Source of the DNA: Streptomonospora mangrovi
GTDB taxonomy: Bacteria; Actinomycetota; Actinomycetes; Streptosporangiales; Streptosporangiaceae
Assembly: GCF_027604915.1 (NCBI RefSeq)
Contig: NZ_JAJAQC010000001.1
Span: 1 to 64,000, forward strand
DNA: 64,000 nt
Direction of reading: 5' to 3'
In this document: piece by piece, positions 26,838 to 34,030 of the stretch
Layout: the number at the start of each line of letters is the position of its first letter
Position numbering within the stretch: position 1 is the stretch's first letter
Made by a program: the position numbers and the translations under genes
Notes under the pieces: model-generated
Databases searched by the model: none
Seen by the model: the letters and a program-made list of their open reading frames with translations, nothing else
Told to the model about the DNA's origin: nothing

Positions 26838-27155
26838 ACCCGTCTCACTCCCATCGCGACCGGGGGACAGCCGACGGCCTCACCTTAGACAACCCCTCGA
26901 CACGCCCTCGACAAGGCACACCACCACCAGGACAGCACACCAGGTGCCGGCTGTTCTCGTATACCCCGCAAAACGCGGCCGTGTGTTGGATCCGACAGGG
27001 GGCGGGCGCGGCCGCGCCGGATCAGGGTCATACGCACTGACCTGCGCCTTCACCCTACGCGCCCGCGCAAGCGGCGCGCCGGGCGCGGGGGTGGGCGGCT
27101 TTTCCGCGCAGGTCAGCGGGGCTCGGGGCGGCCAGGACACGATCCGGTGAATTAC

Positions 27156-27189
27156 CTGACAGCACCCTCGGACAACAACGATAATCGTT
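27156..27189 (+). promoter_or_regulatory. SigA-type promoter overlapped by a CGATAATCG palindrome
   Basis: CTGACA (27156-27161) and GATAAT (27180-27185) are spaced by 18 bp, a good vegetative promoter. The -10 is the centre of the 13-bp palindrome AACGATAATCGTT (27177-27189), an arrangement expected for a repressor that blocks open-complex formation. The 9-bp core CGATAATCG recurs in TTGCGATAATCGCAA at 28546-28560. Confidence 0.65.
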
Positions 27190-27199
27190 TCCAGAAACC

Positions 27200-27229
27200 G
27201 CGGAGCGTGCCCGGTCGGGGACGCTCCGC
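27200..27229 (+). promoter_or_regulatory. 5' leader hairpin of the CooC-like gene
   Basis: gcggagcgt (27200-27208) pairs with acgctccgc (27221-27229). With a start site near 27191 it would occupy most of the leader before the AAAGAGGA ribosome-binding site at 27243-27250. It may stabilise or regulate the mRNA. Confidence 0.45.
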
Positions 27230-27254
27230 CCGGACGCTGTGGAAAGAGGACCCT

Positions 27255-28220
27255 GTGAAGATCGCGTTCGCCGGCAAGGGCGGCAGCGGCAAGACCACCC
27301 TGTCCGCGCTGTTCACGCGCTACCTGGCCGCCACCGGTGCGCCCGTGGTCGCCATCGACGCCGACATCAACCAGAACCTCGGCGCGGCGCTGGGCCTGAG
27401 CGCCGACGACCTCGCGCGGATCCCGCCGATGGGCGGGCACCTGAGCGAGATCAAGGAGGTCCTGCGCGGCGACAACCCGCGCATCGACTCCGCCGAGGCC
27501 ATGACCAAGACCACCCCGCCCGGGCGGGGCTCGCAACTGCTGGAGGTCGCGCCGGACAACCCGCTGCACCGCCGGTTCGGGGTGCCGGCGGCGGGCGCCA
27601 CCCTGCTGGTCACCGGGCCCTACGGCGAGGACGACCTCGGCGTCTCCTGCTACCACTCCAAGGTCGGCGCGGCCGAGATGTACCTCAACCACCTGGTGGA
27701 CGGCCCCGGCGAGTACGTCGTGATGGACATGACCGCCGGCGCCGACTCCTTCGCCTCGGGCCTGTTCACCCGCTTCGACCTCACCTTCCTGGTGGCCGAG
27801 CCCACTCTGCGCGGCGTGGGCGTCTACCGCCAGTACGCCGAGTACGCCGGCGACCACGGGGTCGAGATCCAGGTGATCGGCAACAAGGTGCAGGGCGAGG
27901 ACGACGTGGCGTTCCTGCGCGAGCACGTCGGCGACGCGCTCGCCGCCTGCTTCGGGTTCTCGCCGTTCGTGCGGGCCATGGAGAAGGGCCGCCACCCCGA
28001 ACTGGACGAACTGGAGGAGGAGAACGTCAAGACCCTGGCCTGGATGCGCGACGCCGTCGACTCCGCGGCCAAGGACTGGGCGAAGTTCACCCGGCAGAGC
28101 GCGGAGTTCCACCTGCGCAACGCCCGGCGCTGGGGCGGCGACAACGGCGCCGCGCTGGCCGCCCAGATCGACCCCGACTTCCTGATGGGCCCCGAGGCGC
28201 TCGCCGCCCAGCGCGGCTGA
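27255..28220 (+). CDS. CooC/MinD-like deviant Walker A ATPase
   Basis: This 321-aa SIMIBI-class P-loop ATPase has the N-terminal deviant Walker A VKIAFAGKGGSGKTTLS, a second conserved strand VVAIDADINQNLGAALG, and EYVVMDMTAGADSFASG. The layout matches CooC, the nickel-insertion ATPase of CO dehydrogenase, and related accessory ATPases. The CxC metal motif of CooC is not seen; cysteines occur singly at about residues 133 and 231. No CO dehydrogenase, hydrogenase or urease gene is in the window, so its client is unknown. GTG 27255 has AAAGAGGA upstream. The gene ends in a 36-bp direct duplication that includes the stop codon, then overlapping hairpins. Confidence 0.85.
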   Translation: MKIAFAGKGGSGKTTLSALFTRYLAATGAPVVAIDADINQNLGAALGLSADDLARIPPMGGHLSEIKEVLRGDNPRIDSAEAMTKTTPPGRGSQLLEVAPDNPLHRRFGVPAAGATLLVTGPYGEDDLGVSCYHSKVGAAEMYLNHLVDGPGEYVVMDMTAGADSFASGLFTRFDLTFLVAEPTLRGVGVYRQYAEYAGDHGVEIQVIGNKVQGEDDVAFLREHVGDALAACFGFSPFVRAMEKGRHPELDELEEENVKTLAWMRDAVDSAAKDWAKFTRQSAEFHLRNARRWGGDNGAALAAQIDPDFLMGPEALAAQRG

Positions 28221-28277
28221 GCGAGCGGCCGGGCGCCCGCCGCCCAGCGCGGCTGAGCGAGCGGCCGGGCGCCCGCC
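28202..28277 (+). repeat. 36-bp tandem duplication spanning a stop codon
   Basis: The unit beginning cgccgcccagcgcggctgag at 28202 is repeated at 28238 with no mismatch seen, plus four bases of a third copy. The first copy encodes the last residues and TGA of the CooC-like protein; the second lies in the untranslated tail. Confidence 0.9.
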
Positions 28278-28315
28278 ACTCCAGGCGCCCGGCCGCCCCT
28301 CCGGCGGAGGGGCGG
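28261..28315 (+). terminator. Two overlapping hairpins after the CooC-like gene
   Basis: Stem 1 pairs 28261-28273 with 28284-28296 (13 bp). Stem 2 pairs 28293-28302 with 28306-28315 (10 bp, loop GGC). They share four bases, so they compete at their junction. Confidence 0.7.
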
Positions 28316-28545
28316 GCAGGACCCCGGAGGAGCGCGGGGAGGGAGGGGAAGGAGGGGAGGGCGGGGACGGCCGGCGGGGTGTTACCCCCAGGCAAAATCC
28401 GACAAACTACGCAAATCTCACCATAAACAACAAGATTTCACCACCCCGCGGCATCGATCGGATTACGACCTGCGTGCCCGAACTGACACGCCCCACACGG
28501 GGGAAGACGCTTTCAGTGCACCCGCGCTCCACTGCGGCGCCGCTC

Positions 28546-28560
28546 TTGCGATAATCGCAA
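28546..28560. promoter_or_regulatory. 15-bp perfect palindrome TTGCGATAATCGCAA
   Basis: A perfect 7-1-7 palindrome, with core CGATAATCG identical to that in the promoter at 27177-27189. Fur-family metalloregulators (Fur, Zur, Nur) commonly bind 7-1-7 or related dyads, but the exact sequence is not a consensus I know. It is about 110 bp upstream of the transporter -35. Confidence 0.6.
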
Positions 28561-28668
28561 ACCCCCTGCTGGCAGCCGGAATCGCTACGCACCGTGCGCA
28601 CCTCCCCACGCGCCATTCGCACGCCCCCGCCGCCCCATTGCCACGCGCGGTGAGCATCCCGACACGGT

Positions 28669-28697
28669 TTGACGTGCGTGTTCGGTGTGACAACTAT
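28669..28697 (+). promoter_or_regulatory. Promoter of the family-5 ABC transporter operon
   Basis: TTGACG (28669-28674) and AACTAT (28692-28697) are separated by 17 bp. The predicted leader to GTG 28815 is about 110 nt. Confidence 0.55.
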
Positions 28698-28814
28698 CGA
28701 ACGGTCGGCGTTGTGCGCTCGTGCACACGCCGGCGGGACGCGCCCGCGCACCGCCGGGACCCCGGCCTCGCGGCGCCGCCTCCTGACCGAACACCCGACC
28801 GAACCGAGGTTGCC

Positions 28815-30404
28815 GTGCCGCCCACACCCGCCGACAGCGAACATCCGGTTCCGCGCGCCGCGTCCGCCCCCAGCCGCCGCAGCGTCCTGATGGCCGGAGC
28901 CGCCGGTGCCGTCGTCGTCCCCGCGCTCTCCGCGTGCGGCGGTGGCGGTTCCAGCGGGGCCGGGAGCGGACGGCTGCGGGTGGGGGTGGCCGGCGGGTCG
29001 GCCGAGGACACCCTCGACGCCCACAAGCCCACCGACAACACCGACATCGCCCGCGCGCACAACCTGTACGCGGGCCTGTGCTACTTCGAGACCGACTACA
29101 GCATCCAGATGGCGCTGGCGGAGTCGATCGAGCCCAACGACGACGCCACGGTCTGGACCATCCGCCTCAAGCCCGGCCTCACCTTCCACGACGGCTCGCC
29201 GGTCACCGCCGACTCCGTGGTCTTCACCCTGCGCCGGGTCACCGACCCCGACATCCTGGGCATCGGCGCGCCGCAGTTGGCCACCATGGACCGCGACAAC
29301 ATCGAGCGGGTGGACGACCGCACGGTGCGGGTGCCGTTCTCCGAGCCCTACGTCACCCTGCTGGACCTGCTCGCCGAGTACTCGATGGGCATCGTGCCCG
29401 AGGACTACGACCCCGACAACCCCGTCGGCGCCGGCCCCTTCAAGCTCATGGAGTTCACCCCCGGCCAGCGCAGCCTCTTCGCGAAGTTCCCCGGCTTCTG
29501 GCAGGAGGGCCACCCCCGCATCGAGGAACTGGAGATCATCAACTTCCCCGACGAGACCGCCCGGGTCAACGCGCTGCTGGGCGGCCAGGTCGACGCCATC
29601 AGCCAGCTTCCGCCCAGCCAGATCGAGGTCGTGCGGGCCAACCCCAACATCGAGACCCTGGAGTCGGAGTCGGGGATGTGGACCCCGTTCACCATGCGGG
29701 TGGACAAGGCCCCCTTCGACGACGTGCGGGTGCGCCAGGCGTTCCGGCTCATCGTGGACCGCCGGCAGATGGTCGACCAGGCGCTGGCCGGCTACGGCAG
29801 CGTCGGCAACGACATCTACGGCCGCTTCGACCCCGCCTACGTCGAGGACAAGCTCCCCGACCAGCGCGAACGCGACATCGCCGAGGCCAAGCGGCTGCTG
29901 GCCGAGGCCGGCCACGGCGACGGCCTGGAGGTCCAGTTGGTCACCGGCCCCATCACCCCCGGGGCCGTGGCCGCCGCCCAGGTCTTCAAGGAGCAGGCGC
30001 GCGCCGCCGGCGTGACCGTCAACCTCAAGCAGACCAACTCCACCGAGTACTACGGCGAGAACTACCTCCAGTGGACGTTCGCCCAGGACTTCTGGGCCAC
30101 CCGCAACTACCTGTCGCAGGCGGCGCAGGGCTCCCTGCCCGACGCGCCGTTCAACGAGACCCACTGGGCCGACGAGGAGTGGGTGGACATCGTCAACGAG
30201 GCCCGCCGCACGGTCGACGAGGAGGAGCGCAACCGGCTCATCCAGCAGGCCATGGCCATCGAGCACGAACGGGGCGGCTACATCATCTGGGGCTTCGTCA
30301 ACACCCTCGACGCCTTCCACCGGAAGGTCAAGGGGCTGGAGCCCTCGGTCACCGGGCACCCGCTGACCTCCTACGGCTTCCACCGCGTCCGCATCGAGGA
30401 GTGA
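28815..30404 (+). CDS. ABC transporter substrate-binding lipoprotein, family 5 (peptide/nickel type)
   Basis: This 529-aa exported lipoprotein has a Tat-like leader with twin Arg21-Arg22 in PSRRSVLMAG and a lipobox LSAC ending in Cys41, then a Gly/Ser linker and an SBP_bac_5 domain. Typical motifs are LAESIEPNDDATVWTIRLKP, LTFHDGSPVTADSVVFTLRR and NPVGAGPFKL, followed near the centre by DVRVRQAFRLIVDRRQMVDQ. Family members bind di- and oligopeptides, nickel chelates or opines; the binding-pocket residues cannot be assigned by eye. GTG 28815 was chosen with CGAGG upstream. It heads an operon with two permeases and a fused ATPase. Confidence 0.92.
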   Translation: MPPTPADSEHPVPRAASAPSRRSVLMAGAAGAVVVPALSACGGGGSSGAGSGRLRVGVAGGSAEDTLDAHKPTDNTDIARAHNLYAGLCYFETDYSIQMALAESIEPNDDATVWTIRLKPGLTFHDGSPVTADSVVFTLRRVTDPDILGIGAPQLATMDRDNIERVDDRTVRVPFSEPYVTLLDLLAEYSMGIVPEDYDPDNPVGAGPFKLMEFTPGQRSLFAKFPGFWQEGHPRIEELEIINFPDETARVNALLGGQVDAISQLPPSQIEVVRANPNIETLESESGMWTPFTMRVDKAPFDDVRVRQAFRLIVDRRQMVDQALAGYGSVGNDIYGRFDPAYVEDKLPDQRERDIAEAKRLLAEAGHGDGLEVQLVTGPITPGAVAAAQVFKEQARAAGVTVNLKQTNSTEYYGENYLQWTFAQDFWATRNYLSQAAQGSLPDAPFNETHWADEEWVDIVNEARRTVDEEERNRLIQQAMAIEHERGGYIIWGFVNTLDAFHRKVKGLEPSVTGHPLTSYGFHRVRIEE

Positions 30405-30483: not shown

Positions 30484-31434
30484 ATGTCACGTCTGATCCT
30501 CTACCGCCTCGGCTACGGGCTGCTGACCCTCTTCGTGGTCTCGCTCGTGGTGTTCCTGGCGACCCAGGCCCTGCCCGGCGACGCCGCGCGCGCCATCCTG
30601 GGCCGCGACGCCACCGCCGAGCGCGTCGCGCTGCTGCGCGACCAGCTCAACCTCAACGACCCGCTGGCCGTGCAGTACGGCAAGTGGCTGGCCGGCCTGT
30701 TCACCCTGGACCTGGGCGACTCCTTCGCCAACGCCCGCCCGGTCAGCGAGTACCTGGGCCCGCGGGTGACCGCCAGCTTCGTGCTGATGGGGCTGGCGGC
30801 GCTCATCGCCACCCCCGTCTCGCTGCTGATCGGCGCCTACAGCGCCCTGCGCCGCGACCGCGCCGCCGACCACGCCACCTCGGCGGTGTCGCTGGTGCTG
30901 GCGGCCCTGCCGGAGTTCGCGGTGGGCATCCTGCTCATCCTGCTGCTGTCCACCGGCTGGCTGCACCTGCTGCCGCCGGTGTTCGCGGGCAGCGCGAGCG
31001 CGGTGCTGGCCGACCCCGCGCAGCTCATCCTGCCGGTGCTGACGCTGGTGCTGGCGGTGAGCCCGCCCATCATCCGGATGATGCGCGCCTCGATGATCGA
31101 GGTGCTGGAGAGCGAGTACGTGCAGCAGGCGCGGCTCAAGGGGCTGCCCGAGCGGGTGGTGGTGTGGCGCCACGCCGCGCCCAACGCCATCGGCCCGGTG
31201 GCCCAGGTGATCGCGGTGCAGTTGGGCTGGCTGGCCGGGGGCGTGGTGGCGATCGAGTTCCTCTTCGCCTTCCCGGGGATCGGGCTGGCGCTGATGGACG
31301 CGATCACCACCCGCGACATCCCGGTCATCCAGGCCGTGACCCTGCTGATCGCGCTCGTCTACATCGTGGTCAACCTGCTGGCCGACGTCGTGGGCCTGGC
31401 CGCCAACCCGAAGGTGAGGGTGTCCGCCCGATGA
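30484..31434 (+). CDS. ABC transporter permease, DppB/NikB type
   Basis: This 316-aa inner-membrane permease has an N-terminal helix (LILYRLGYGLLTLFVVSLVV), the conserved ALPGDAARAILGRDA, and a BPD_transp_1 region with about six helices. The ATPase-coupling loop contains EYVQQARLKGLPERVVVWRH and NAIGPVAQVIAVQ. It forms the channel with the next permease. The stop overlaps the following ATG (ATGA, 31431-31434), so translation is coupled. Confidence 0.93.
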   Translation: MSRLILYRLGYGLLTLFVVSLVVFLATQALPGDAARAILGRDATAERVALLRDQLNLNDPLAVQYGKWLAGLFTLDLGDSFANARPVSEYLGPRVTASFVLMGLAALIATPVSLLIGAYSALRRDRAADHATSAVSLVLAALPEFAVGILLILLLSTGWLHLLPPVFAGSASAVLADPAQLILPVLTLVLAVSPPIIRMMRASMIEVLESEYVQQARLKGLPERVVVWRHAAPNAIGPVAQVIAVQLGWLAGGVVAIEFLFAFPGIGLALMDAITTRDIPVIQAVTLLIALVYIVVNLLADVVGLAANPKVRVSAR

Positions 31435-32326
31435 GTCTCGCCACCGCAACCGCACCCGAGTCCGCCGCCGCGGCCGCCGCGCCCGCCGGCCGGCGCCAGG
31501 GCCTGTTCCGCGCGGCCTGGCGGCACGGCCGCACCAAGGTGGGCGTGGTCCTGGTCGGCCTGGTCGTGCTGACGGCCGCGCTCGGGCCGTTCCTCAGCCC
31601 CTACTCCCCCACCGAGCTGGTGGGGATCCCCAACCGCACCGACGTCGAGGGCACCCTGTTCGGCACCGACGGCATCGGCCGCGACGTGCTCAGCCGGTTC
31701 CTGCACGGCGGCTACACGCTGATCACCATCGCGGTGTCGGCGGCGCTGGTGGGCGTGGTAGTGGGCGCCGCGATCGGCGTCGTCGCCGGCTACCGGCGCG
31801 GCTGGCCGGACGAGGCGATCATGCGCACCAACGACATGGTGCTCGCCTTCCCCCAGCTCGTGCTCGCCCTGCTGGTGATGTCCATCATCGGCCCCCAGGT
31901 GTGGCTCATCATCCTGCTGATCGGGGTGTCCCACGCCGCCCGCGTGGCCCGGGTCGCCCGCGAGGCCACCCTCAAGGTGGTCGAGCAGGACTTCGTGAAG
32001 TCGGCCGAGGCCATCGGCGTACCGGGGTGGCGGATCATGGCCGGGGAGATCCTGCCCAACATCACCAGCCCGCTGCTGGTCGAACTGGGCCTGCGCATCA
32101 CCTACTCGGTGGGCCTGATCGCCACGCTGAGCTTCCTGGGCATGGGCCTGCAACCGCCCACCGCCGACTGGGGCCTGATGATCAACGAGAACCGCATCGC
32201 CATCACCGTGCAGCCGTGGTCGGTGGTGCTGCCCGTGGCGGCGGTGGCGCTGCTGACCATCGGCGCCAACCTCATCACCGACGGCCTGTCGCGGGCCTCG
32301 ATCGGCATCGACCGGGGGGTGGAGAA

Positions 32327-32330
<4 letters not shown>
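31431..32330 (+). CDS. ABC transporter permease, DppC/NikC type
   Basis: 299-aa partner permease: an Ala-rich polar N-terminus (about 30 residues), a first helix, the family motif GTDGIGRDVLSRFLHGGYTL and a coupling loop with EQDFVKSAEAIGVPGWRIM followed by ILPNITSPLLVELG. The C-terminal FLGMGLQPPTADWGLMINEN is typical of this family. Its stop overlaps the ATPase start (GTGA, 32327-32330), continuing the coupled operon. Confidence 0.93.

Positions 32331-34030
<1,700 letters not shown>

Follow-up and report, generated by a model that had tools for sequence, protein, structure and literature searches.

The window, that is, the whole 64-kb stretch of DNA that was analysed, carries on its plus strand a gene for a CooC/MinD-type ATPase of 321 residues (27255-28220, GTG start), so classed by its fold and by CooC1 being its best solved relative. 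Further along on the same strand lie the genes of a family-5 ABC importer, namely a substrate-binding protein (SBP_bac_5, 28815-30404, GTG start, E=7e-82), two permeases recognised by profile matches (30484-31434 and 31431-32330) and a fused double ABC ATPase with two ABC_tran domains (32327-34030). A promoter scan of positions 27050 to 28850 returned a single sigma-70-like match (0.0 expected), located ahead of the CooC-like gene (27156-27185, plus strand) and formed by CTGACA (27156), an 18-bp spacer and a GATAAT -10 hexamer (27180-27185). For the transporter operon, a putative promoter made up of TTGACG, a 17-bp spacer and AACTAT (28669-28697, plus strand) was assigned by visual inspection and conservation; the same consensus scan did not report it. 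Of the Nocardiopsis-group loci, 20 extend far enough to judge, and 12 of these retain the ATPase gene next to the transporter.

The region between the two units contains an AT-richer, conserved non-coding element (28420-28472, plus strand; TAAACAACAAGATTTCAC...CATCGATCGGATTACGAC), which travels with the transporter cassette: a pattern search finds it in the window and in 10 of 12 transporter loci, visual inspection adding the remaining two, and gives no match in the nine loci where no transporter lies within reach. Visual inspection also revealed a near-perfect tandem duplication, GCCGCCCAGCGCGGCTGAGCGAGCGGCCGGGCGCCCGCC, at 28221-28279, which spans the stop codon of the ATPase gene. The sole terminator-like match in this region lies on the minus strand and is no better than chance, so that the terminator scan leaves room for read-through from the ATPase gene into the transporter genes. 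An RNA element at the locus was considered and discarded, since Rfam gave one sub-threshold match inside coding sequence (E=0.32), which was attributed to chance.

Each unit is preceded by a palindrome built on a common 9-mer, CGATAATCG, which occurs exactly twice in the window (27179-27187 and 28549-28557; expected 0.04), while none of 100 shuffled windows had two copies. Site 1, AACGATAATCGTT (27177-27189), and site 2, TTGCGATAATCGCAA (28546-28560), lie where the preliminary description had placed them; each is a perfect dyad around a central A, and neither has a further match in the window at up to two mismatches, their own reverse strands aside. Both palindromes are confirmed as genuine and beyond chance, in a window whose GC content was computed as 75.1% instead of the about 73% given earlier. 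Two other early statements also held, as the GATAAT of the lone promoter reported falls inside site 1, and site 2 precedes by 116 bp the TTGACG (28669) taken as the -35 hexamer of the transporter promoter. Nor is the motif scattered over coding DNA, the 6.36-Mb genome having five occurrences of RCGATAATCGY, two of them in the window and one inside an ORF. The three outside the window are found between an ABC-3 permease gene and its divergent ATPase gene (a zinc-ABC pair, L004), upstream of a haem-oxygenase gene (L003) and within a DHFR-like ORF (L005). Outside the common 9-mer the half-sites of the two palindromes differ, with AACGAT in site 1 and TTGCGAT in site 2.

The genomic company of site 1 points to zinc. 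A mismatch search with AACGATAATCGTT led to TGAAAACGATAACCGTTTTCA upstream of paralogs of the ribosomal proteins S18 and L28, the former without Cys and the latter with one Cys (by eye), and a search with TGAAAACGATTTTCA led to sites before ZnuA, NRPS, SDR, FecCD permease and cation-efflux genes. The sites of the genome agree with the S. coelicolor Zur motif, given as tGaNNatSatNNtCa together with a 21-bp actinobacterial form in the available part of the source (PMC5472717). A Zur matrix was built from nine 15-mers outside the window (L004, L008, L012, L013, L015, L016 and L017), chosen by the analyst after inspection; they precede rpsR/rpmB paralogs, an ABC-3 zinc-type permease and its ATPase, ZnuA, NRPS, FecCD and SDR genes, with one locus (L015) having no assigned gene. 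In the 64-kb window, the top score of this matrix falls on CGATAATCGTTTCCA at 27179, with 20.8 bits against 12.2 for the next 15-mer. Site 1 still ranks first when L004, the most similar training locus, is removed (19.7 versus 12.0 bits) and when four training sites only are used (17.4 versus 12.8 bits). A second, overlapping frame at 27173 reaches 12.1 bits, and the two halves of site 1 are unequal, ATCGTTTCCA being the good one and the other poorer. The predicted box, CAACAACGATAATCGTTTCCA, would extend over 21 bp (27173-27193) as two 7-1-7 boxes overlapping by nine bases. The haem-oxygenase gene was rejected as a third target, its best Zur-type score being weak (8.3 bits), and so was L005 (3.1 bits, within the ORF); the L003 site itself (L003:1496-1510, C17:177234) carries AAACGATAATCGCC. 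Elsewhere in the genome, two strong Zur-type boxes stand about 3.6 kb apart at NRPS and SDR genes (C26:20286 and 23853; L012 and L016), which makes these genes a candidate zincophore cluster.

A suitable regulator is encoded in the genome, where a PF01475 search found two Fur-family proteins. One is Zur (L104), its best match being PDB 3mwm (E=1.6e-51), which we take to be the S. coelicolor Zur, and its neighbours, judged by eye, are ZnuC/ZnuB-like genes. The other is PerR/CatR-like and adjoins a catalase gene. Neither was best matched to 3eyy, presumably the S. coelicolor Nur, and with one Zur and one PerR/CatR-like protein making up the pair there is no evident Nur. The early suggestion of a Fur-family metalloregulator can hence be kept for site 1, where the matrix and its conservation indicate that Zur very probably acts, and not for site 2, whose score is too low for a Zur box.

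The conservation of site 1 was followed in 63 loci with homologues of the ATPase, 21 from the Nocardiopsis group (L027-L046 and L088) and 42 others, mostly from Amycolatopsis, the close relatives among them not being independent. AA[CT]GATAATCGTT is present in all 21 Nocardiopsis-group loci, with the box centre 34-102 bp before the start codon in 20, and in most of them CTGACA or a close variant stands 18 bp ahead of GATAAT. In Nocardiopsis lucentensis (L036:4393-5964), an inserted RRXRR/HNH gene, presumably IscB-type, separates the Zur box from the ATPase gene. Over the whole set, the highest-scoring 15-mer within 150 bp upstream ranked first in its own locus in 52 of 63 cases and among the top four in 62; for the 42 non-Nocardiopsis loci the corresponding counts were 32 and 42. 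The matrix without L004 placed it first in 51 of 63 loci and that from four sites in 46, both with rank five or better in 62. Distant homologues are preceded by Zur-like sites of different sequence, TGAAAA-N9-TTTTCA being visible in many of the non-Nocardiopsis loci; 15 of the 42, mostly close Amycolatopsis relatives, score just 13.1-13.4 bits, near noise. Within the genus, the 13-mer AACGATAATCGTT was found in six of six genomes, in one or two copies each, and its nine places comprise six at the CooC-like gene and three at the zinc ABC pair. Taken together with its position, site 1 is very probably a Zur box covering the -10 hexamer of the CooC-like gene. Zur control of the ATPase family is not universal, since seven homologues from another genus have no upstream box. 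The ATPase was detected in eight of 296 sampled phylum genomes, the home genome and seven from that genus, and seven of the eight loci of the latter scored 3.4-5.7 bits within 150 bp upstream. In these loci (L107-L113) a Zur-like 15-mer of 15.4-17.5 bits, partly forced by the MKIAF codons, lies over the start codon and the AT-rich first codons ATGAAAATTGCTTTCG. One genome of this genus has two paralogs, just one of which has a 20.5-bit box in the 150 bp upstream.

As regards the protein, its structure was predicted with confidence (mean pLDDT 91.9, pTM 0.92) and CooC1 was the first Foldseek match. In VIA-align, the Z score of CooC1 (19.8) was tied with those of the nitrogenase Fe protein (20.2) and BchL (20.1), and because these proteins, and MinD too, are equally good matches, the fold alone does not choose the function. 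The MinD/CooC-type fold and the P-loop of the CooC family are present. CooC1 has a metal-binding CxC motif at its dimer interface; this motif is absent here and an invariant Cys132-Tyr133-His134 (codons at 27648-27656) takes its place, profile alignment setting it on Cys112-Tyr113-Cys114 of CooC1. Cys132, His134, His146 and His286 are identical in 70 of 70 sequences, a set from which the search pattern omitted two loci, and also in 34 of 34 sequences of an alignment that includes these two; the C-terminal residues 275-321 are barely covered by the tests. Zinc binding by the ATPase may be inferred from these residues, and ATP-driven zinc handling during zinc starvation would be its likeliest role. 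That it acts as a true zinc chaperone is a proposal to which we give somewhat less than even weight. Of comparable standing, and likewise short of an even chance, is the reading in which Zur control is right but the ATPase serves another client, as the zinc-sparing or stress version of, say, a carrier of Fe-S or another cofactor, or of a partitioning-type ATPase. The fold is indeed common to many ATPases of other functions, and the genome from the other genus pairs boxed and unboxed paralogs in the manner of the Zn-free ribosomal proteins. However, both paralogs retain the Cys/His positions, so that the Cys-plus/Cys-minus split of the ribosomal proteins is not reproduced, and the Nocardiopsis studied here has a single ATPase copy at E<=1e-30.

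The preliminary description had pointed to nickel as the metal of a two-unit regulon, perhaps under a Fur/Nur/Zur-type protein. In a nickel system of this kind, the ATPase would mature a nickel enzyme and the transporter would import nickel, both under Nur. CooC1 being the closest solved relative of the ATPase speaks for this, as does the weak matching of the substrate-binding protein and permeases to nickel models, but searches for the partners gave it no support and we regard it as hardly credible. Besides the lack of an evident Nur, the home genome has no match to the Prismane/CooS family of Ni-CO dehydrogenases (PF03063, the client family searched for, which matched in 5 of 14 genomes as a control). 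PF02492 revealed no clear CobW, UreG or HypB chaperone of the G3E type, its lone match (23.2 bits) lying, by eye, in a methylmalonyl-CoA-mutase region, and the ATPase itself has no PF02492 match. On the transporter, the NikA, NikB and NikC models remained far under their curated cut-offs (156 of 600 and 79 of 393 bits for NikA, 199 of 447 for NikB, 174 of 358 for NikC), as Opp2B did under its own (261 of 350); the NikD and NikE cut-offs were passed by unspecific ABC ATPase halves matching 195 families. The solved relatives of the binding protein do not decide on a substrate either, AgaA and peptide, nickel and haem binders all matching alike. Finally, the spacing of site 2 is TTGC-N7-GCAA, unlike that of the Nur box, tTGCaa-N5-ttGCAA in the available part of its description (PMC3919588).

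It could still be supposed that both sites belong to one regulon, under Zur or another single regulator, given their common 9-mer core, found at these two places only in the window, and the retained neighbourhood of the two units. Such a two-unit regulon, as first put forward, is very improbable, however. As a Zur box, site 2 reaches at most 6.1 bits in its best overlapping 15-mer (rank 54 in the window) and -5.0 bits in its own symmetric frame; the half-sites differ, and so does the position relative to the promoters, site 2 being far upstream of its own. Moreover, among 12 relatives carrying both the ATPase gene and the transporter, site 1 is kept in all, whereas site 2 occupies the corresponding gap in six (in L030 with three mismatches) and was not found in the other six. 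The two sites look like different, non-equivalent operators, and do not look like parts of one nickel regulon. The site 2 15-mer is unique in the genome, where the next best match has two mismatches, and is present in 2 of 396 phylum genomes; its 14-mer occurs in 3 of 6 genus genomes and in 10 of 100 family genomes, in five of these ten at this transporter. In the window and nine relatives, the distance from the centre of site 2 to the transporter TTGAC is 106-107 bp in eight cases and 116-117 bp in two, the latter being the window and a relative 94% identical to it. This offset of one helical turn suggests that site 2 is a distal, phased operator, with the conserved element at 28420-28472 located upstream of it.

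Six occurrences of site 2 away from the transporter, five of them in the ten family genomes and one among the 396 phylum genomes, were examined for a hint of its regulator. Two are followed at 13-25 bp by genes encoding an HTH_3 domain, as expected if site 2 were the operator of an XRE-type regulator, but the other four are in coding DNA or near no clear gene, and the two HTH_3 proteins otherwise differ, one being a TetR fusion and the other an M78 peptidase fusion. Two in six are too few to name the regulator, and an XRE-type protein is unlikely in that role.

The explanation that we consider best, and quite probable as a whole, combines a Zur operator at site 1, a zinc-handling ATPase and a separate operator at site 2. 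At the level of sequence, it builds on the established identity, conservation and promoter overlap of the box, the CxH/CxC equivalence and the absence of evident nickel partners. When zinc is plentiful, Zn-Zur would bind the overlapping 7-1-7 boxes and cover the -10 hexamer, keeping the CooC-like ATPase gene off. Under zinc starvation, Zur would leave site 1 and the ATPase would be produced alongside Zn-free ribosomal proteins, zinc importers and the zincophore-like NRPS cluster. The ATPase is envisaged as a dimer-forming MinD/CooC-type enzyme with Cys132-x-His134 where CooC1 has Cys-x-Cys, in which a pair of Cys and a pair of His residues might hold zinc at the dimer interface. Its ATP cycle could then load or release the metal, so that the enzyme would do for zinc what CooC does for nickel. 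Site 2 would serve the neighbouring family-5 ABC importer as a different operator, read by another regulator.

When compared with known systems, the locus resembles the S. coelicolor Zur regulon, with which, as far as the available parts of its descriptions go, it shares the type of box, the Zur protein, Zn-free ribosomal paralogs, znuA-type importers and a boxed NRPS cluster. It differs in having a CooC-type ATPase as a target and a AACGATAATCGTT core with two overlapping boxes; in addition, those descriptions list yciC, whereas the home genome has no clear COG0523 gene. Streptomyces Nur/NikABCDE offers a family-5 ABC importer with an upstream palindrome, yet the palindrome spacing is another, no Nur is evident and the NikA/B/C models stay below cut-off. 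With Carboxydothermus CooC1 (PDB 3kje), which serves in Ni-CO-dehydrogenase maturation, the ATPase shares the P-loop signature lysine, the fold (Z 19.8) and the aligned CxC/CxH position. Unlike CooC1, it has CxH for CxC, is about 60 residues longer, stands behind a Zur-type promoter and belongs to a genome without Ni-CODH. The name CooC makes a nickel annotation tempting, which is corrected here.

To our knowledge, the Zur-controlled candidates for zinc delivery under scarcity are COG0523 GTPases. No Zur-controlled CooC-type ATPase turned up in the open-access papers searched; the 172 S. coelicolor Zur peaks may hold one. The COG0523 proteins (CobW/YciC/ZNG1), as Zur-regulated metal chaperones, have the same place in the Zur regulon and are also SIMIBI-class NTPases (class names as in the available part of PMC2770081); the present ATPase belongs to the MinD/CooC side and not to G3E, with no PF02492 match. 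It is tempting to speculate, as a possibility rather than an expectation, that Zur-controlled Cys-x-His ATPases form a second, non-G3E class of ATP-driven zinc metallochaperones in actinobacteria, replacing COG0523 in Nocardiopsis, with an unrelated regulator governing the transporter from a distal, helically phased site. In the home genome, which has no clear COG0523 protein, a conserved ATPase from a different branch and probably under Zur provides a directly testable second candidate for this function.
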